NCBI GenBank assembly: GCA_947474755.1
Contig: CANJJE010000007.1
Coordinates: 1 to 64,000 of the forward strand
Length of the DNA stretch: 64,000 bases
Direction of reading: 5' to 3'
Source of the DNA: Burkholderiales bacterium
GTDB lineage: Bacteria; Pseudomonadota; Gammaproteobacteria; Burkholderiales; Burkholderiaceae_C
The notes under the pieces were generated by a model. The model did no database searches. It saw nothing but the letters and a program-made list of their open reading frames with translations, and was not told where the DNA came from. Shown here piece by piece: positions 11,929 to 23,270 of this stretch (position 1 is its first letter; every line of letters begins with the position of its first letter). A program made the position numbers and the translations under genes.

Positions 11929-12786
11929 ATGCTCTGGCAAACCACTCACCATCTGATCGAGCTTTCCGTGCCCAGAGTCATGGGCATAGTCAACACGACG
12001 CCCGACTCTTTTTCTGACGGGGGGCGGTTCACCAGTGTGGCTGCGGCCGTCGATCATTGCCGACGCCTGATCGACGAAGGTGCAGACATCCTCGACATCG
12101 GTGGCGAGTCGAGCCGTCCAGGTGCCGAGCCGGTGTCTCTGGAGGAAGAACGTCGTCGCGTCCTGCCAGTTCTCGAAGCAGTGCTTGCGATGAGACACCC
12201 GGTGTCGATTGACACCACCAAGCCTGCCCTGATGGCAGAAGCCTTGGCGCTGGGTGTCGACATCGTCAACGACATTCATACCCTGAAAGCGCTGGGTGCG
12301 CTCGATGTTGTTGCGGCGCATCCGAATTGTGGTGTCTGCCTGATGCATATGAAGGGCAAGCCGCCATCGATGCAGTCGCAGCCTTCCTACATCGATGCGG
12401 TGGCCGAAGTGGGTTCGATGCTCCGAGATCGGATGGAGGCATTGACGGCGCGGGGTGTCGCCGCCGATCGCATCGTGCTGGACCCGGGAATCGGCTTCGG
12501 CAAGACGATTGAGCACAACCTCGAGTTGCTGCGTCGGCAGCGAGAGTTGCTCGTGCTGGGCCGCCCCTTGCTGGTCGGCTGGTCGCGCAAGTCGTCACTC
12601 GGCGTGCTGACCGGGCGTGCGGTCGGCGACAGGTTGGCTGCCAGCATCGCGGCAGCCTTGGCGGCGGTGCTGAACGGTGCCAGCATCGTCCGCGTCCACG
12701 ATGTCGCTGCCACCGTCGATGCCGTGAGGGTATGGCGCGCGGCTGGTTTGCCGATAACACCCGTCAGGTTTGACCAACTGCGATGA
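11929..12786 (+). CDS. folP: Dihydropteroate synthase
   Basis: A 285-aa TIM-barrel enzyme condensing p-aminobenzoate with dihydropterin pyrophosphate in folate synthesis; it is the sulfonamide target. Conserved loops are all present: [15 protein letters not shown] (loop 1), [11 protein letters not shown] (loop 2), [10 protein letters not shown] and [10 protein letters not shown], with a final [18 protein letters not shown]. The ATG at 11929 gives the usual LWQT N-terminus. It lies 13 bp before glmM, so the pair is very likely one operon, the common order in proteobacteria. Confidence 0.97.
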
Positions 12787-12799
12787 GAGTCCAACGACC

Positions 12800-14131
12800 A
12801 TGACAAGAGTTCATTTCGGCACGGATGGCATCCGCGGCACGGTGGGGCAATCGCCAATCACCCCCGACTTTATGTTGCGGCTGGGCCACTCGGTCGGGCG
12901 GGTACTGAAAGCCTCGGATCCCAAGCCCACGGTGCTGATAGGCAAGGACACCCGTATCTCGGGGTACATGATCGAGTCGGCACTGGAAGCCGGTTTCGCC
13001 TCGGCAGGTGTGGATGTGCTGCTGACCGGTCCGTTGCCCACGCCGGGCATCGCCTACCTGACGCGCGCTTTGCGGCTGAATCTGGGTGTGGTCATAAGCG
13101 CATCACACAATCCATTCGCCGATAACGGCATCAAGTTTTTCTCTGCACGCGGCGAGAAGCTGCCTGATGAATGGGAGGCAAGTGTCGAGGCCTCGCTCGA
13201 CCAGCCACCTCAGTGGGTCGCCTCCGCCACGCTCGGCAAGGCCCGCAAGCTGCAGGATGCGCGCGGACGCTACATCGAATTCTGCAAGAGCACCTTCAGC
13301 AGCGAGTTGTCGCTCAAGGGCCTGAAGATCGTCGTCGATGCCGCCCACGGTGCGGCCTACCATGTGGCGCCGGAGGTGTTCCACGAACTGGGCGCTGAAG
13401 TCGTGGCCATCGGGTGCAGTCCGGATGGGACCAATATCAATGCGGGGTTCGGCGCTACCGCGCCAGCGGCCTTGGTTCAAGCTGTCAAGGAGCATCGAGC
13501 CGATTACGGCATCGCGCTCGATGGCGACGCCGACCGATTGCAACTGGTGGATGCGGCCGGTCGTCTTTACAACGGTGACGAGCTGCTTTATGCGATGGTG
13601 ACCGACCGCCTCGCGCAAGGTCAGGCCGTGCCCGGCGTGGTCGGGACCTTGATGACAAATCTGGCGGTGGAGTCTGCTCTGCAGCGACTTGGTGTCGACC
13701 TGGTGCGTGCACGCGTCGGTGATCGCTACGTTCTCGAAGGCCTGCTGGCCCGTGGCTGGAACCTTGGCGGGGAAGGGTCCGGTCATTTGCTGGCGCTTGA
13801 TCGGCACACGACCGGTGACGGCATCATCAGCGCACTGCAGGTGCTCCAGGCGGTGTGCCGGACCGGTGTGAGCTTGGCAGATCAGTTGCGGGAGGTGACG
13901 CTGCTGCCGCAAGTGATGATCAATGTTCGCCTGCGCGAGGGGCTGGACTGGAAGACGCACGACCCCTTGCGCCTGTTACAGCGCGAGATCGAGGCTGAAC
14001 TGGGAAGTACCGGTCGAATCCTGATACGCCCCTCTGGCACTGAGCCCTTGCTGCGCGTGATGGTCGAAGCCCGCGACCACCAGACGGCCAACCGCTGTGC
14101 GCAACGCTTGGCTCAGACGCTGGAGGTCTGA
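12800..14131 (+). CDS. glmM: Phosphoglucosamine mutase
   Basis: A 443-aa alpha-D-phosphohexomutase converting glucosamine-6-P to glucosamine-1-P for UDP-GlcNAc (peptidoglycan and LPS). The start [16 protein letters not shown] is diagnostic. The active-site phosphoserine lies in [16 protein letters not shown], the metal loop is [13 protein letters not shown], sugar binding is GGEGSGHLL, and the phosphate-binding C-terminal loop is [13 protein letters not shown]. The ATG at 12800 is preferred over an upstream TTG at 12770 that overlaps folP. The gene converges on the fasciclin gene 15 bp away. Confidence 0.97.
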
Positions 14132-14146
14132 GCCAGCTTCACGAAT

Positions 14147-14635
14147 TCACTTCTTGACGGGGGGAATGAGTACCGTGTCGACGATGTGCACCACGCCGTT
14201 CGACGCTTCGATATCTGCAGTGGTAATCACCGCGCTTTCGACCGTCACAAAGGTGCCCGAACGGTACAGCGATACCGGAGCGCCTTGCACGGTAGTGGCC
14301 GGGCCGTTCTTGACATCGGCCGAAGTCACCTTGCTGGGCAGGACGTGGTAAGTCAGCACTGAAATCAACAGAGCCTTGTCCTTTGACAGCGCGTCCAGCG
14401 TTTTGGCTGGCACGGCTTTGAAGGCATCGTCAGTCGGCGCAAACACTGTGTACGGCCCAGGCTCCTTGAGTGTTTCCGTCAATCCTGCGTCGTTGATCAA
14501 CTTCGTCAGCGTCGACAACTGCGGCGTGGCGGCCGCGGTTTCCGCGACCGACTGTGGCGCAGGTGCAGTGGCGCAACCGCCCAGAATGACTGCCGTGGTC
14601 AGCGTCAAGCTCATGGCTAGCTTGCTGAAATACAT
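14147..14635 (-). CDS. Fasciclin (FAS1) domain lipoprotein
   Basis: A 162-aa protein with a lipoprotein signal: MYFSKLAMSLTLTTAVILGGC ending in lipobox LGGC with Cys at about 21. A single FAS1 domain follows: STLTKLINDAGLTETL, GPYTVFAPTDDAFKAVP, LISVLTYHVLPSKV and the C-terminal SNGVVHIVDTVLIPP (H2 box). FAS1 proteins are generally surface adhesion or envelope proteins. Its upstream region, shared with the divergent pstS promoter, contains PHO-box half-sites oriented toward this gene, so phosphate control is predicted (see findings). Confidence 0.9.
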   Translation of the reverse strand: MYFSKLAMSLTLTTAVILGGCATAPAPQSVAETAAATPQLSTLTKLINDAGLTETLKEPGPYTVFAPTDDAFKAVPAKTLDALSKDKALLISVLTYHVLPSKVTSADVKNGPATTVQGAPVSLYRSGTFVTVESAVITTADIEASNGVVHIVDTVLIPPVKK

Positions 14636-14716: not shown

Positions 14717-14756
14717 ATGGACCATTTATGACAAATAGGTGACTTGCGAGTGACGT
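14717..14756 (-). promoter_or_regulatory. Tandem PHO-box-like half-sites facing the fasciclin gene
   Basis: On the reverse strand, half-sites ACGTCAC, AAGTCAC, TTGTCAT and a weak GGTCCAT follow each other at exact 11-bp steps (starting at 14756, 14745, 14734 and 14723). Three of the four hold the GTCAY core of the PhoB half-site. CATAAA (14730-14725), 8 nt after the first pair, could be the -10. Assignment is by pattern only. Confidence 0.45.
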
Positions 14757-14816
14757 GACTCGCGCGCGTCGTGGTGGTGAGGTCAGTCGCCAAAACATGA
14801 CTTCGACGCGTTGAAC

Positions 14817-14834
14817 TTGTCACCGGGGTGTCAT
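14817..14834 (+). promoter_or_regulatory. PHO box of pstS
   Basis: TTGTCAC-CGGG-GTGTCAT matches the 7+4+7 PhoB box (CTGTCAT-N4-CTGTCAT). A -10-like TCTAAC lies 8 bp downstream (14843-14848), and pstS begins 63 bp after the box. This places the pst-pho operon under its own PhoB. Confidence 0.8.
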
Positions 14835-14897
14835 ATTGGTCTTCTAACCTCATCGGTTGAATCACTTTGCGCCTCGCGCACACGGAAAGGATCTGAA

Positions 14898-15935
14898 ATG
14901 ACTGTTGTTGCGAACCGAATTGCGTCGATCGCCGTTGGCCTGCTGGCTGCTTCCAGTCTCGCCAGTGCGCAGAGCGTCACAGGTGCAGGCGCAAGCTTCC
15001 CTGCGCCGATCTACTCCAAGTGGGCGGATTCGTACAACAAGGCGACGGGTGTTCGGGTGAACTACCAGTCTGTCGGATCCGGCGCGGGCATCAAGCAGAT
15101 CACTGGCAAGACCGTGGACTTCGGCGCCTCGGATATGCCGCTCACTGACGAGGCGCTCGCCAAGGATGGATTGATCCAGTTTCCGACCGTTATCGGTGGA
15201 GTGGTGCCGGTAGTGAATATCAAGGGTATCGAGCCAGGCCAGATCAAGCTGACAGGCCAGCTTTTGGGCGACATCTACCTGGGAAAGATCACCAAGTGGA
15301 ACGACCCGGCCCTCACCGCGTTGAACCCGGGGGTTCCTTTGCCAGACGAGACTATCTCTGTGGTCCGCCGCGCCGACGGCTCAGGCACGACCTTCATCTT
15401 CACCAACTATCTTTCGAAGGTGAATGCAGAGTGGAAGTCTAAGGTCGGTGAAGGTACCGCAGTAAACTGGCCTACCGGTGCTGGTGGCAAGGGCAACGAA
15501 GGTGTATCGGCTTTCGTGGCACGACTACCCAATTCGATCGGCTATGTCGAGTACGCGTACGTCAAGCAGGCAAAGTTGACCTACACCTTGCTGAAGAACA
15601 AGGACGGTGAGTTCCACGCACCTGATGACGAGGCCTTCAAGGCTGCTGCTGCTGGTGCCGACTGGTCGAAGACCTTCTACCAGGTGTTGACGGACCAGCC
15701 TGGCAAGGCAACGTGGCCATTGTCCGGCGCCACGTTCATCCTGATGCACAAGGTGCAGGACAAGCCCGTCCAAGGCTCGGAATCGCTGAAGTTCTTCGAG
15801 TGGGCCTACTTGAATGGCGACAAGGAAGCGGCTGCCCTCGAATACGTTCCCCTTCCTGCGTCGGTCAAGGAACTCGTGCGCAAGCAGTGGGAGCAGATCA
15901 AGGATGCGTCTGGCAAGGCCATCGCCTACAAGTAA
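14898..15935 (+). CDS. pstS: Phosphate ABC transporter, periplasmic phosphate-binding protein
   Basis: A 345-aa protein with a Sec signal peptide (MTVVANRIASIAVGLLAASSLASA). The mature protein begins SVTGAGASFPAPIYSKWADSY, with the phosphate-binding segments VGSGAGIKQITGKTVDFGASDMPL and RRADGSGTTFIFTNYLSK. It captures phosphate in the periplasm for PstCAB. The start at 14898 follows GAAAGGA; the track start at 14811 lies inside the PHO box and is rejected. It is first gene of pstSCAB-phoUBR. Confidence 0.97.
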   Translation: MTVVANRIASIAVGLLAASSLASAQSVTGAGASFPAPIYSKWADSYNKATGVRVNYQSVGSGAGIKQITGKTVDFGASDMPLTDEALAKDGLIQFPTVIGGVVPVVNIKGIEPGQIKLTGQLLGDIYLGKITKWNDPALTALNPGVPLPDETISVVRRADGSGTTFIFTNYLSKVNAEWKSKVGEGTAVNWPTGAGGKGNEGVSAFVARLPNSIGYVEYAYVKQAKLTYTLLKNKDGEFHAPDDEAFKAAAAGADWSKTFYQVLTDQPGKATWPLSGATFILMHKVQDKPVQGSESLKFFEWAYLNGDKEAAALEYVPLPASVKELVRKQWEQIKDASGKAIAYK

Positions 15936-16014: not shown

Positions 16015-17034
16015 GTGGCCGCAACACTTCCAGCATCCTCAAACGACAAGGACACGATGGTGCGGTCAGAGCAACAGGGCATTCCGCCACAAAGAAAGGG
16101 CTCCTCGCCCTGGATCGACAGGCTGTTCTCGGCGCTGGCGCATGGAGCGGCCATCCTCACGCTAGGCCTCCTGTTTGCGATCATCGTTTCGCTGGTCATC
16201 GGAGCGTGGCCAGCCATAGCCAAATACGGCCCCAGCTTCCTGTGGCGCAGCGAGTGGGATCCGGTACAGGAAAGCTTCGGCGGTCTCGTGATGATCTACG
16301 GGACGCTGATGACCTCGTTCATCGCGCTCTTGATCGCTGTGCCCGTGAGCTTCGGCATTGCGTTGTTCCTCACCGAGTTGTCACCGAGTTGGTTGCGTCG
16401 GCCATTGGGCGTTGCAATCGAACTTCTGGCAGCGGTGCCGTCGATCGTCTACGGCATGTGGGGGTTGCTGGTCTTCAGCCCAGTGTTGTCGACCTACGTG
16501 CAGCAACCGCTGCAGAAGCTTTTCGCTGGTGTTCCTTTCCTTGAAGAACTTGTGTCGGGTGCCCCTGTGGGTATCGGCCTCCTGTCCGCCGGGATCATTC
16601 TGGCGATCATGATCATCCCGTTCATCGCATCAGTGATGCGCGACGTATTCGAGATCACGCCGCCGATGTTGAAGGAATCCGCATATGCGCTCGGGTCCAC
16701 CACGTGGGAGGTCGTGTTCAAGGTCGTGCTTCCGTACACCAAGACGGGCGTGATCGGTGGAATCATGCTCGGCTTGGGTCGCGCGATTGGCGAGACCATG
16801 GCTGTGACGTTCGTCATCGGCAACTTCAATCAACTCAACAGCCTGTCGCTGTTCGAGGCTGCCAACAGCATCACCTCGGCCCTTGCCAACGAGTTTGCCG
16901 AGGCGGGTCCGGGCCTGCATCAGGCCTCGCTCATCTATCTGGGGCTCGTCCTGTTCTTCATCACCTTCTGCGTGTTGTCGCTGTCCAAGGTGCTGCTCTC
17001 ACGCCTTGCGCGCAATGAAGGGAGCCGATCGTGA
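16015..17034 (+). CDS. pstC: Phosphate ABC transporter permease PstC
   Basis: A 339-aa inner-membrane permease with about six hydrophobic segments, such as [37 protein letters not shown] and [22 protein letters not shown]. The MetI-type EAA loop [25 protein letters not shown] contacts PstB. A GTG start at 16015 is supported by GGAGG four bases upstream; an internal ATG (16057) lacks a comparable site. It overlaps pstA by 4 bp. Confidence 0.96.
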
Positions 17035-17900
17035 CCACCATGGATGCTCTTCAGGCTTCGAAGATCGCCAAGCACAACCGCCGCAAACGGGTCAATGTCA
17101 TTGCGCTGGTGTTGTCGATGTCGGCGATGGTGTTCGGCCTGTTCTGGCTCTCCTGGATCCTGATCGAAACGGTGCGCTTGGGCATTGGTGGTCTTTCGCT
17201 GTCGCTCTTCACAGAGATGACTCCGCCGCCGCAGGCCGAGACCGGGGGCTTGTTGAATGCCATCGCTGGTTCGCTGGTGATGGTGGCGCTGGCCACGTTC
17301 GTCGGCACTCCGATAGGCATCCTGGCGGGGGTCTACCTTGCAGAGTTCGGGCAGAAGACGCTGCTCGGAAACCTCACGCGATTCATCAACGACATTCTCT
17401 TGTCGGCGCCTTCGATCGTGATCGGTCTGTTCATTTACACGGTGGTGGTGGCGCCGATGAAGACTTATTCGGGCTATGCCGGTGTGCTGGCGCTTGCGCT
17501 CATCGTCATTCCCGTCGTCATTCGCACGACAGAGAACATGCTGTCCCTGATTCCGAGCGCCTTGCGGGAAGCGGCCTACGCGCTCGGAACGCCCAAGTGG
17601 AAGGTGATTCTCAGCATCACGTTGAAGTCGGCCCGTGCAGGCGTCATCACGGGTATCTTGCTGGCGGTGGCACGAATCGCCGGTGAAACAGCGCCCTTGC
17701 TCTTCACTGCGCTGTCCAACCAGTTCTGGGCGTCGAACCTGAGTGGCCCCGTGGCGAGCCTGCCGGTCACCATCTTCAAGTTCGCCCTCAGCCCCTATGA
17801 GAACTGGCAAAAGCTGGCTTGGGCAGGCGTCTTCCTCATCACGATTGGGGTCCTCTTCCTGAACATCCTTGCGCGCGTTCTCTTCCGAAATAAGAGCTGA
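17031..17900 (+). CDS. pstA: Phosphate ABC transporter permease PstA
   Basis: A 289-aa partner permease of PstC, with hydrophobic segments from [21 protein letters not shown] to [20 protein letters not shown]. The EAA loop is [25 protein letters not shown]. The start is GTG in a GTGA overlap with the pstC stop, and GGGAG precedes it. It forms the membrane channel with PstC. Confidence 0.96.
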
Positions 17901-17917: not shown

Positions 17918-18682
17918 ATGACACAAGAGAAAATCAAGATCTCGGTCAAGAACCTCAACTTCTACTACGGCAAGTTCCTTGCGTTGAAGAACATCAACCT
18001 CGAATTGCCCGAGCGCAAGGTCACCGCCTTCATCGGGCCTTCGGGATGCGGCAAGTCGACCCTGCTGCGAACGTTCAACCGAATGTTTGAGCTCTACCCC
18101 GAGCAACGGGCCGAAGGTGAGATCCTTCTGGACGGCGAGAACATCCTCAATTCGAAGCAGGACGTGTCGCTCATGCGCGCCAAGGTCGGCATGGTCTTCC
18201 AGAAGCCGACTCCTTTCCCGATGTCCATCTACGACAACATTGCCTTCGGGGTGAAGCTGTTTGAAACCCTGCCGCGTGCCGAAATGGACGAGCGTGTCGA
18301 GTGGGCCCTGAAGAAGGCTGCCCTGTGGAACGAGGTCAAGGACAAGCTCAAACAGAGCGGTTCGGGGCTGTCTGGCGGTCAGCAGCAGCGCCTGTGCATC
18401 GCGCGCGGCATCGCGATCAAGCCGGAAGTGCTTCTGCTCGACGAGCCATGCTCGGCGCTGGATCCCATTTCCACCGGCAAGATCGAGGAACTGATCCATG
18501 AGCTGAAGTCCGACTACACCGTGCTCATCGTCACCCACAACATGCAGCAGGCGGCACGCACTTCAGATTACACGGCCTATATGTACCTCGGCGATCTGAT
18601 CGAGTTCGGGCCGACGTCGGAGTTGTTCATGAAGCCGAAGAAGAAGGACACCGAGGACTACATCACCGGGCGGTTCGGTTGA
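17918..18682 (+). CDS. pstB: Phosphate ABC transporter ATP-binding protein
   Basis: A 254-aa ABC ATPase with Walker [10 protein letters not shown], a Q-loop in [17 protein letters not shown], the signature [16 protein letters not shown], Walker [14 protein letters not shown] and the H-loop in [11 protein letters not shown]. It powers phosphate import through PstCA and is also part of the PhoR signalling complex with PhoU. It is 17 bp after pstA. Confidence 0.97.
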
Positions 18683-18712: not shown

Positions 18713-19420
18713 ATGACTGAAAAACACCTCTCCACCCAGTTCGACACCGAACTCAGCGGTATCTCCACCCGTGTTCTGGAGATGGGCGGGCTGGTCGAAT
18801 CACAGGTCGCTCAGGCGGTCTATGCGCTGACGCATTTCAGCGACGAAACCGCCTCGCAGGTGCTGGTGCTGGAAGAAACCGTCAACTCGATGGAAGTCGA
18901 GATCGACCGCGATCTGTCGAGCATCATTGCGCGGCGTCAGCCGACCGCGCGCGATCTGCGCCTGCTCATCGCGATCAGCAAGACCATTGCCAACCTGGAG
19001 CGCGTGGGCGATGAGGCCGCGCGTGTCGCGCGCACGGTGCAACGACTGATCAACACTGGCGTGTCAAGCCGCCTGCGCTTGCCCGTGTCCGATCTGAAAT
19101 TCGAGTCTGAATTGGCGATTGCCCAGTTGCGAAAAGCCCTCGATGCGTTTGCACGCCTGGATGTCGAGAGGGCGCTGGAAGTGCTGAAGCAGGACGATCA
19201 GATCGACCAGGAGTTTGAAGGGCTGATGCGCAAGTTGATCACCTTCATGATGGAAGACCCGCGCACGATTTCATCGAGCATCGACCTGGTGTTCGTAGCC
19301 AAGGCAATCGAGCGGGTGGGTGACCACGCGAAGAACCTCGCGGAGCAGATCATCTACATCGTCAAGGGTACCGATGTGAGGCACAACTCGGTCGAGGAAG
19401 TCGAGAGCCTGGTGCGATGA
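18713..19420 (+). CDS. phoU: Phosphate signalling complex protein PhoU
   Basis: A 235-aa all-helical protein of two PhoU repeats, with the metal-binding motif pattern seen in ETVNSMEVEID and QDDQIDQEFEGL and the helices KTIANLERVGDEAARVAR and KAIERVGDHAKNLAEQI. It restrains PhoR kinase activity when phosphate is plentiful. It lies between pstB and phoB. Confidence 0.96.
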   Translation: MTEKHLSTQFDTELSGISTRVLEMGGLVESQVAQAVYALTHFSDETASQVLVLEETVNSMEVEIDRDLSSIIARRQPTARDLRLLIAISKTIANLERVGDEAARVARTVQRLINTGVSSRLRLPVSDLKFESELAIAQLRKALDAFARLDVERALEVLKQDDQIDQEFEGLMRKLITFMMEDPRTISSSIDLVFVAKAIERVGDHAKNLAEQIIYIVKGTDVRHNSVEEVESLVR

Positions 19421-19442: not shown

Positions 19443-20129
19443 ATGAGCCGTGTTCTGGTCGTGGAAGACGAATCAGCGATCGCGGAGCTGATCTCCATCA
19501 ACCTGCGCCACGCTGGCTACGACGTGACCATCGCATGTGATGCGGATCAGGCGCAGATCGAGGTCGATGGCGTCCTGCCGGATCTGGTCGTGCTGGACTG
19601 GATGCTGCCAGGGCAGTCTGGGTTGGTCCTGGCCAAGCGCTGGCGCGGCCAGACCCGGACCCGCGAATTGCCGATCATCATGCTGACTGCGCGCGCCGAA
19701 GAAGGCGACATGATTTCCGGGCTCGACGCCGGTGCTGATGACTACCTGACCAAGCCGTTTTCGACCAATGAGTTGCTGGCGCGCATTCGTGCGGTGCTGC
19801 GTCGCAAGGCGCCGGAGGCGCTGGACACTGTGGTCGACGTGGCGGGTCTGAAGCTCGATCCAGCGACGCGTCGGGTGGCCCGTGATGACCGTGAGGTGCG
19901 AATCGGTCCGACCGAGTTCCGCCTGCTGCATTTTTTCATGACCCATACTGAACGGGTGCATAGCCGTGCACAGTTGCTCGACCGGGTGTGGGGCGACCAT
20001 GTCTTCATCGAGGAGCGCACGGTCGACGTTCATGTGAAGCGCCTGCGAGAAGCGCTTGATCCGGTGGGCTGCTCTCGCATGATCGAGACGGTTCGCGGCG
20101 CCGGATATCGGTTCACGCAACAGGTATAA
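19443..20129 (+). CDS. phoB: Phosphate regulon response regulator PhoB
   Basis: A 228-aa OmpR-type regulator. The receiver has the acidic pair VEDESAI, the phospho-acceptor Asp in DLVVLDWMLPG, the conserved Thr/Ser in IIMLTARAEE and Lys in YLTKPFSTNEL. The C-terminal winged helix ends RTVDVHVKRLREALDPVG...IETVRGAGYRF. It activates PHO-box promoters, including the one predicted upstream of pstS here. It is followed by phoR. Confidence 0.96.
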   Translation: MSRVLVVEDESAIAELISINLRHAGYDVTIACDADQAQIEVDGVLPDLVVLDWMLPGQSGLVLAKRWRGQTRTRELPIIMLTARAEEGDMISGLDAGADDYLTKPFSTNELLARIRAVLRRKAPEALDTVVDVAGLKLDPATRRVARDDREVRIGPTEFRLLHFFMTHTERVHSRAQLLDRVWGDHVFIEERTVDVHVKRLREALDPVGCSRMIETVRGAGYRFTQQV

Positions 20130-20163: not shown

Positions 20164-21558
20164 ATGGGCTGGCTTCTCCTTCGCTTGCTGGCGTCGACAC
20201 TGAGCGTGGTGGTGGCGGCAGTGGTCGGCTGGCTGGTTGGTGGTGCGTGGCAGTTTCCGCTGGTGGGCGCTGCGGTCGGTGCCGTGCTGGGGGCGCAGAT
20301 CTATGCGCTGAGCGATGCGCTGCGCGGACAGCATTTCCTGAAGTGGCTGCAATCACGAGAGGCAACACCACCGCCGCGTGGTGGTGGTTTCTGGGGCGAG
20401 GTCAGCTATCGCGTCGATCGCTCCCAGCGTTCGCTCGAACAAAGGATCGATCGCGAGCGGACCCGCCTGGATCAGTTCCTGTCAGCCATCGAGGCCTCGC
20501 CGAACGGCGTGATGATGCTGGACGTCAACGATCAGATCGAGTGGTGCAATTCGGTCGCTGCCGACCATTTCGGCATCGACCCGCAACGCGATCGTCTGCA
20601 GCCCATCACCAACCTGGTTCGTGCGCCGATCTTCGTTGCGCATCTGCAGGCCAGGCTGTTCAATGAGGCTGTCAGCTTTCCAGGGCCGGGGTCGCGCGGC
20701 GCGGTGTCGGTGCTGATCAAGCCCTATGGCGATTCGATGAAGCTGGTGCTGTCGCAAGACATCACCGAGCGAGAACGCAGCGACAGCATGCGCCGGGGCT
20801 TCGTCGCCAATGTGTCGCACGAAATCCGTACGCCTTTGACGGTGCTCTCTGGCTTCATCGAGACGATGTCCAGCCTGCAGTTGACCGAGGTCGAGCGGCG
20901 ACGTGTCATTGAATTGATGGCGCAGCAGGCTCAGCGAATGCAGCACCTCGTCGGCGATCTGCTGACGCTGGCCCAGCTTGAGGGCAGTCCGCGCCCCCCC
21001 GCAGACCGCTGGGTGCCGGTACGGCAGCTGCTGACACAGGTGCGTGCTGCTGCCGAGGCGCTGTCGGCCGGTCGCCACGAACTGGTGTACGGCAGCGGTG
21101 TCATGTCTGAAACGGGTGGTGACCTGATCGCTGGTTCCGAGCAGGAACTGCACAGCGCGATCGCAAACCTCGTCAACAACGCCATCCGCTATACCCCCAA
21201 CGGTGGAACAGTCCATGTGTGCTGGACCGTGCGCGCAGATGGAATCGGTGAACTCGAGGTACGCGACACGGGCATCGGGATCGCAAAGGAGCATCTGCCC
21301 CGGCTCACTGAGCGCTTCTACCGCGTTGATGGCAGCCGCTCCCGCGACACCGGCGGCACAGGACTGGGTCTGTCGATCGTCAAGCATGTCGTGCAGCGCC
21401 ACGGGGGCGAGCTTGAGATTCGCAGTGAACCGGGGAATGGTTCGAGCTTCAAGCTGTTGTTTCCAGCGGCCCGCGTGCGCGTCGTGAACTCACCACTGGA
21501 GCTGCAGTCGACCACATTGCAGCCAGGCGCAGATGCCGCGGTAGGCATGGCTGGCTGA
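20164..21558 (+). CDS. phoR: Phosphate regulon sensor histidine kinase PhoR
   Basis: A 464-aa membrane histidine kinase. Two N-terminal hydrophobic stretches (LLASTLSVVVAAVVGWLVGG and FPLVGAAVGAVLGAQIYAL) are followed by a cytoplasmic PAS-like segment (FLSAIEASPNGVMMLDVNDQIEWCN). The phospho-acceptor H-box is FVANVSHEIRTPLTV, the N-box NLVNNAIRYTPNGG, the G1 box VRDTGIGIAKEHL and the G2 box GGTGLGLSIVKH. It lacks a large periplasmic sensor domain, as expected for PhoR, which reads the state of PstSCAB-PhoU. It is the last gene of the operon and converges on the next gene with 20 bp between stops. Confidence 0.95.
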   Translation: MGWLLLRLLASTLSVVVAAVVGWLVGGAWQFPLVGAAVGAVLGAQIYALSDALRGQHFLKWLQSREATPPPRGGGFWGEVSYRVDRSQRSLEQRIDRERTRLDQFLSAIEASPNGVMMLDVNDQIEWCNSVAADHFGIDPQRDRLQPITNLVRAPIFVAHLQARLFNEAVSFPGPGSRGAVSVLIKPYGDSMKLVLSQDITERERSDSMRRGFVANVSHEIRTPLTVLSGFIETMSSLQLTEVERRRVIELMAQQAQRMQHLVGDLLTLAQLEGSPRPPADRWVPVRQLLTQVRAAAEALSAGRHELVYGSGVMSETGGDLIAGSEQELHSAIANLVNNAIRYTPNGGTVHVCWTVRADGIGELEVRDTGIGIAKEHLPRLTERFYRVDGSRSRDTGGTGLGLSIVKHVVQRHGGELEIRSEPGNGSSFKLLFPAARVRVVNSPLELQSTTLQPGADAAVGMAG

Positions 21559-21578: not shown

Positions 21579-23270
21579 TCAACGCGCCGGCGGCTGGGAA
21601 GGCCGGCTCGCAGGACGCCGGTAGATCGCCACCCATTCGGTGCGATCGGTTGGACGACTGACTCGGGCAACCAGTGACCAGCCGGGTGGCGCCGGGTGCT
21701 TCCCAGACTTCAATTCGGGTTGCAGCAGATATGTGCAGCGTGTGTCTGCCTCTCCCGACAGGCCGTCGACCCGGTAGCCCCCGAAGTATTCCAGGGATGC
21801 CCACACGCTGCGAGGCAGCCGAGACGCAGCGATGCATGCATCGGACGGCACGTGTTGGGCCACGCGCTTGACGAGAGGGCGCAGACTGCGGGCGTAGTCC
21901 AGCACCGGAAGCATCAAGGTCATCAACAACAGCCAGCACAGCGCGACACCGCTGGCCGGCAGTACCAGACTCTTCCAGAGGGCATGCTGGTTACGTCCGG
22001 TGCGCCAACGCACCAGCCACAACCAGGCCAAGCACCCGGCCGTTGCCAGGGCCAGTGCGAGCACCGAGAAGTGAGAGACGAAGCCGGGCGCCAGCTTGAC
22101 GACGTTCTGAGCGGGGCGCACCGGGAAGCCGATCTGCAGCGACGCGTAGATGACCCAAAACGCGACCGCACAGACGCTGAAGAAAAACACCGAGAACCAA
22201 TCAATCGCTGCGGCTGTGCTCCGCTTGAGCGTCGGCAGCGCGAACGCCGCCAGCAGCGCAAAGGCTGGCAGCGACAGCATCAGCGTGCGGTCCTGTCCTC
22301 CCATCACAACACTGGCCAAGGCTGTCACTGCCGCGCAGCCCAAAGGCACCGCGATATGGCGATTCAGGATGTGCCGACGCCATTGCCACAGCGTCCATAG
22401 CGCCATGGGCCACACTGGCCACAGGAACCATAGCCACTGCCGTGCCACCGCCGTCACGCTATCGAGGGTGCGATAGCTGCCAGCCTGCCATGTCCACAGG
22501 TCGAATGCGGTGGCCAGCGCTGCTGTCAGTCCAGTGGCGCTCGCCACCCAAGGGGTGAAGCGTCGCACGATCGGATAGGCTGATCGGGCGCACACCAGGC
22601 TGCCTGCCAGGCCGAGCGCCAGCGCGATACTCGGTGCGCCGCTGCCGGCCAATGCCGGCAGACCGATCATCACTGCAAACTTCGGGTGTCTGGCGCGAGA
22701 GGGACTGGCCGCCATGGCGTAGGTGTACAGAGCGACGCAGGCGAGCTGGGTCAGTTCGGGTGTCGTCTCGTGCCCGAGTTGCAGCAGCCCCAAGGTCGCG
22801 ATCAGTGCCAGCAGTGCGCCATCGGCCATCGCTCGTGCGTAATCGATCGGGTCGGCCTCACCCCCAAAGGCGAACGGCAGGGGTTGGGCGGCTTCGGTGC
22901 GCGCCAGGTGATAGGCGGCATACCAGGTCAACGCCAACACCGACACCAGCAGCATGGCGAATGGCAGCCGAGCCGCCAGGGATGGGTCGATCCATGGGTT
23001 GAGCAATCGGATGAAGATCGCTCCCAGCCAGTAAGGTACTGGCGCAGGGTCGGCCATCACGCCGCCTACTGTCGGCATCCACCACGACGACCGGCCATCG
23101 GCCATGGCGACCATGTAGCCAAACGCTGTCACATCGGCATTGCGCCAGGGATCACGTCCGAACAGTCCTGGCAGGACGTAGGCGGCACACAACAGCAGCA
23201 AGGCCCAGCGCGGCAACCGCTGCACGGCTCGCTGCGATACCAAGGCGGGGTTCAGTGAGGAGTGGACCAT
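21579..23270 (-). CDS. Multi-spanning membrane protein, probable GT-C (ArnT/PMT-like) glycosyltransferase
   Basis: A 563-aa protein with many hydrophobic helices (WALLLLCAAYVLPGLFG, LPFAMLLVSVLALTWYAAYHL, ALLALIATLGLLQL, ALALGLAGSLVCA, FSVLALALATAGCLAWLWL and others). The first loop GRDPWRNADVTAFGYMVAM recalls the acidic first extracytoplasmic loop of GT-C transferases of the ArnT/mannosyltransferase type, which use polyprenyl-phosphate sugars. Donor and acceptor cannot be inferred. The ATG at 23270 directly abuts the rpmE2 terminator and has no Shine-Dalgarno, so an internal GTG or TTG start within the first ~17 codons is possible (see findings). Confidence 0.6.
   Translation of the reverse strand: MVHSSLNPALVSQRAVQRLPRWALLLLCAAYVLPGLFGRDPWRNADVTAFGYMVAMADGRSSWWMPTVGGVMADPAPVPYWLGAIFIRLLNPWIDPSLAARLPFAMLLVSVLALTWYAAYHLARTEAAQPLPFAFGGEADPIDYARAMADGALLALIATLGLLQLGHETTPELTQLACVALYTYAMAASPSRARHPKFAVMIGLPALAGSGAPSIALALGLAGSLVCARSAYPIVRRFTPWVASATGLTAALATAFDLWTWQAGSYRTLDSVTAVARQWLWFLWPVWPMALWTLWQWRRHILNRHIAVPLGCAAVTALASVVMGGQDRTLMLSLPAFALLAAFALPTLKRSTAAAIDWFSVFFFSVCAVAFWVIYASLQIGFPVRPAQNVVKLAPGFVSHFSVLALALATAGCLAWLWLVRWRTGRNQHALWKSLVLPASGVALCWLLLMTLMLPVLDYARSLRPLVKRVAQHVPSDACIAASRLPRSVWASLEYFGGYRVDGLSGEADTRCTYLLQPELKSGKHPAPPGWSLVARVSRPTDRTEWVAIYRRPASRPSQPPAR

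Follow-up and report, generated by a model that had tools for sequence, protein, structure and literature searches.

A fasciclin lipoprotein gene divergent from pstS is a predicted member of the Pho regulon in Burkholderiales

The 64,000-nucleotide stretch of contig CANJJE010000007.1 from a Burkholderiales bacterium that was analyzed here (the window) carries folP-glmM, fas1 on the opposite strand, and pstSCAB-phoU-phoB-phoR, in that order. The subject of this work is fas1 (14147..14635, minus strand), which encodes a 162-amino-acid (aa) single-domain fasciclin (FAS1) lipoprotein with a signal peptide and an LGGC lipobox ending in Cys21, together with the 262-bp intergenic region that separates it from the divergently transcribed pstS (14898..15935, plus strand). 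The product of the latter gene, the phosphate-binding protein, is recognized above the cut-off by the NCBIfam models NF008171 and TIGR00975. On its other side, fas1 is convergent with glmM (12770..14131, plus strand), which adjoins it in many relatives; given this convergence and the 15 bp between the two stop codons, fas1 is probably transcribed alone.

The intergenic region contains two divergent PHO boxes. The one directed toward pstS, TTGTCACCGGGGTGTCAT (14817-14834, plus strand), is the best site in the window with matrices derived from relatives and is followed, after 10 nucleotides, by the predicted −10 hexamer TAACCT (14845-14850). Toward fas1, the minus strand carries three GTCAY half-sites in exact 11-bp phase, namely GTCAC at 14754-14750, GTCAC at 14743-14739, and GTCAT at 14732-14728, which make up the box GTCAC-N6-GTCAC-N6-GTCAT (14754-14728); the predicted −10 hexamer of fas1, at 14717-14712, also lies 10 nucleotides after the last half-site. 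The two predicted promoters are therefore mirror images of each other, including the identical TAACCT hexamers, and their boxes are 62 bp apart. A sequence-only reading of this region had described both the pstS box and the phased minus-strand half-sites, and each was found exactly where it had been placed. However, that reading had put the −10-like hexamers 8 nucleotides downstream of the boxes; because relatives conserve TAnnnT at exactly 10 nucleotides, the longer spacing is preferred here on both strands.

A pattern search found the exact phased triple once in the 3,063,438-base genome, with 0.03 occurrences expected on both strands of the whole genome from base composition. Scoring of the window with matrices from relatives, a check that the sequence-only reading had proposed, put the two sites at the top in each case. 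With a 33-column matrix based on pstS promoters from other genera and then applied to the opposite strand, they ranked 1 and 2 in the 64 kb (scores of 22.2 and 14.5, with the next best site at 5.1). A second matrix, derived from ten relatives that lack fas1 next to pstS, again ranked them 1 and 2 (16.6 and 14.8; next, 11.6), so that the result does not depend on the loci that share the arrangement.

The spread of the arrangement was assessed by querying a sample of 121 genomes of the family, nearly all of different genera, with Fas1 and PstS. In 33 of these genomes, representing 32 genera, fas1 is divergent from a neighboring pstS, and all 30 of the best Fas1 matches come from such loci. The culturable relatives Polaromonas jejuensis (L036) and Albitalea terrae (L034) are among those that carry it. 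On the fas1 strand, the best site scored above all 200 dinucleotide shuffles in each of 34 loci. A PHO box and a −10 hexamer were present upstream of every one of the 37 pstS-linked fas1 genes (two of which, L011 and L034, form a nearly identical pair), with matrix scores from 8.7 to 33.1, and the promoters of 27 unlinked fas1 genes of the same family scored from −17.5 to −0.8, with no overlap between the two sets. The second fas1 of the genome that contains the window, a two-domain gene on contig C2 (locus L178), has no box and scores −10.0, and the promoters of 75 fas1 genes from elsewhere have a median score of −9.8, with a single one above 8. A class-level search outside the order yielded 15 further genomes with FAS1 genes, none of them linked to pstS, and a plasmid search revealed no close relative, all matches being below 60% identity.

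The TAnnnT hexamer, 10 nucleotides after the box, is retained on the fas1 strand in nearly all of the 33 divergent loci. Conservation inside the matrix columns is partly a product of picking the best-scoring site; columns −9 to −7, which lie outside the matrix and were hence unselected, carry 1.2 to 1.4 bits. On the fas1 side, 24 of the 33 loci have a third half-site, located exactly 11 positions upstream (−11), and 7 have a fourth, at −22; no locus has the third half-site on the pstS side. The middle half-site of the fas1 promoters is often TTCAC, and the longer PhoB array of these promoters may compensate for individual half-sites that are weaker.

The box also accompanies fas1 genes that are found away from pstS. 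In f13, a different family of the order, fas1 and pstS are divergent in one species (L194) but not in two of its congeners. One of these has fas1 behind a gene resembling those for GMC oxidoreductases (L192), and the other has it next to an RlmN-like gene (L193), each neighbor having been named by eye from its sequence; the box and the −10 hexamer are kept in the two. In a member of family f10 (L200, 1498-2224), fas1 lies directly behind pstB, and the space between the two genes contains a terminator-like hairpin followed by a separate box; read by eye, this box is GTCAT-N6-GTCAT-N6-TTCAT-N10-TATCGT, and with the matrix it scores no higher than 4.2. Such retention in relocated genes argues that the box belongs to fas1 and not only to pstS. 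In pstS loci that lack fas1, reverse PHO boxes could be assigned to divergently oriented genes, ppk2-like in L156 and ppx-like in L159, which suggests that the slot opposite pstS is used for Pho genes. Reverse-strand PHO-box-like sites with scores from 8.7 to 12.6 were also seen upstream of pstS in L139, L142, and L151, with no obvious divergent gene.

These comparisons make it highly probable that fas1 is a PhoB-activated gene of the Pho regulon in Burkholderiales, and Fas1 is very probably a conserved, previously unrecognized part of the bacterial phosphate-starvation response. The original suggestion that PhoB targets both fas1 and pstS is supported by the occurrence of the boxes in about 33 genera, the separation from unlinked paralogues, the retention after relocation, and the grouping of the box-bearing proteins in one clade (see below). 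Several observations weigh against this assignment. The fas1-side boxes are weak in L025, L004, and L012; the matrix built on fas1-free genomes places 27 of the 34 loci, rather than all of them, above the 99th percentile of the shuffles; and searches of the open-access literature found no expression or binding data for these genes. Chance similarity of short GTCA motifs might be argued from the unweighted 18-mer consensus of Escherichia coli, by which the pstS site is not outstanding: the box matches it at 11 of 18 positions, and 20 positions in the window do better. This consensus is a poor guide here and was dropped as too blunt a criterion, so that the case rests on comparative evidence. 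The uniqueness of the phased triple in the genome, the 34 of 34 loci above all shuffles, and the full separation from unlinked paralogues leave a negligible probability for chance, which the conservation across relatives refutes. The minus-strand half-sites could also be thought to serve pstS, by loading additional PhoB or by repressing from a distance, with fas1 itself not activated by PhoB. The short distance between the boxes would fit such an arrangement, but the −10 hexamer that nearly all loci have at a constant distance on the fas1 strand, the persistence of the box with fas1 away from pstS, and the assignment of two reverse boxes in fas1-free pstS promoters to divergent ppx or ppk2 genes make it very improbable.

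Promoters of the E. coli pstS type contain direct GTCA half-sites with an 11-bp period that replace the −35 element, with the −10 element about 10 nucleotides downstream. If fas1 is activated by PhoB, the 262-bp region would consist of two PhoB-dependent promoters placed back to back. Under phosphate scarcity, PhoR would phosphorylate PhoB, and PhoB~P, bound to the phased GTCAY half-sites in place of a −35 element, would start transcription of pstSCAB-phoU-phoBR and, leftward, of monocistronic fas1. PhoB binding and low-phosphate induction are predicted for fas1. Both regulators are encoded just downstream, within the window: PhoB (19443..20129; 342.7 bits with the TIGR02154 PhoB equivalog, cut-off of 296.2) is presumed to be the regulator that binds both boxes, and PhoR (20164..21558) is a sensor kinase with the Pfam domains PhoR, HisKA, and HATPase_c, all above the cut-off. 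Between pstS and phoB, and likewise on the plus strand, are pstC (16015-17034), assigned from sequence and the order of open reading frames (in relatives, PstC occurs with pstS); pstA (17031-17900) and pstB (17918-18682), named on the same grounds; and phoU (18713..19420; Pfam PhoU, 132.4 bits). The gene that adjoins phoR on the minus strand (21579-23270) encodes a 563-aa multi-spanning membrane protein that has no Pfam match and looks glycosyltransferase-like by eye.

Only one further sequence in the genome, TGTCACCGCGATGTCATCCTTCATTTCTACATT at positions 29295-29327 of contig C15 (L113:1501-1533), fits the combined pattern of PHO box and −10 element without a mismatch. This site is located just upstream of a gene for ArsJ-associated GAPDH (NF033735, 541.6 bits), behind which an arsJ-like transporter gene begins; judging from its position, this arsenate-efflux pair may be Pho-regulated. 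A match with one mismatch, C10:22288-22320 (L114:1501-1533), is found upstream of a lytic transglycosylase-like gene and could be due to chance.

The Fas1 protein is matched by Pfam PF02469 with 129.3 bits (cut-off of 22) over residues 38-158, which cover the whole profile (1-123 of 123). Its AlphaFold model, with a predicted local distance difference test (pLDDT) score of 79, has the FAS1 fold, and the top PDB matches of the model are the FAS1 domains of TGFBIp, periostin, CupS, Fdp, and MPT70, with E values down to 6e-14. A FastTree phylogeny of 165 FAS1 domains places all 39 box-bearing genes in one clade (support of 0.92), with L200 as its sole additional member. Compared with the 126 other FAS1 domains, this clade shows near-invariant Leu40 (L40; Phe in the others), Leu46 (L46; Ala in the others), and Phe129 (F129), and mostly has Glu133 (E133) and Pro38 (P38). 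The lipobox of Fas1 occupies residues 18-21, and its Cys residue is conserved at 0.97 in the clade; a lipobox-like motif is present in 38 of the 39 members, and the exception possibly has a mis-called start. The residue at position +2 after the lipidated Cys is almost always Ala. By the +2 rule of E. coli, Ala at this position leads to sorting to the outer membrane, so that an outer-membrane location is expected: after export and lipidation at Cys21, Fas1 would be attached to the envelope, with the outer membrane as the most likely site.

Anchored in this way, Fas1 might act as an adhesion or envelope-association factor, similarly to Fdp of Rhodobacter sphaeroides, an adherence factor that is negatively controlled by the Prr two-component pathway (PMC7561615). 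This precedent makes adhesion plausible for Fas1, and such a role is a substantial, if uncertain, possibility. Several near-invariant positions at which the clade departs from other FAS1 domains count against it, as does the chance that the lipid anchor could leave Fas1 facing the periplasm, the default orientation of lipoproteins. A gene of the Pho regulon could also encode a protein that works inside the periplasm, as a partner of Pst or in envelope remodeling when phospholipids are scarce, and not in adhesion. That default orientation would fit such a function, as would the persistent linkage to pst genes, including the position behind pstB in L200, and the residues L40, L46, F129, and E133, which many or nearly all clade members share and few other FAS1 domains have. 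Shared regulation alone can explain the linkage, however, two clade members (L192 and L193) are found away from pst, and Fdp, the proteobacterial FAS1 precedent with functional data, is an adherence factor (PMC7561615); a periplasmic role is accordingly regarded as possible but doubtful. It seems rather unlikely, although conceivable, that the Burkholderiales FAS1 lipoproteins marked by these four residues form a distinct subfamily serving as a dedicated phosphate-starvation envelope factor, one that would have evolved with Pst and, instead of generic adhesion, would, for example, aid phosphate capture or offset the loss of envelope phosphate.

Should the predicted control of fas1 by PhoB hold, phosphate scarcity would induce a fasciclin lipoprotein, so that attachment or the state of the envelope would be coupled to nutrient status in soil and freshwater bacteria, and the little-known FAS1 proteins of bacteria could be studied under a defined condition. 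Few bacterial regulons have been studied as thoroughly as the Pho regulon, yet a gene opposite pstS in roughly a third of the genera sampled from one large family has seemingly been overlooked: a search of open-access papers for a connection of fasciclin proteins with PhoB, with the Pho regulon, or with starvation or limitation for phosphate found no relevant bacterial report.

The fas1-pstS region resembles the pstS-type Pho promoters of E. coli in the period of the half-sites, the −10 spacing, the adjacency to pst, and the presence of phoBR in the same cluster. It differs from them in the spacers, which in many cases are rich in G+C instead of A/T, in the TAnnnT form of the −10 element, and in the number of half-sites, typically three toward fas1 and two toward pstS. 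Among proteins, Fdp (PDB 1w7d) and its relative Nex18 of Sinorhizobium share with Fas1 the organization of a single bacterial FAS1 domain; Fas1 matches Fdp with an E value of 4e-25 by sequence and with 42% identity in the fold search. Expression under a two-component response regulator is another common feature, predicted in the case of Fas1. Fas1 differs from Fdp in being a lipoprotein and in its placement in a separate clade from Burkholderiales. The mycobacterial MPT70 and MPB70 (PDB 1nyo; E value of 1e-20) are also secreted proteins with a single FAS1 domain; they are actinobacterial antigens under SigK control and, unlike Fas1, have no phosphate link. A Pho promoter and a FAS1 protein are each of an ordinary kind; what is new is that the two occur together, that they do so in about 33 genera, and that the fas1 side has an additional half-site.
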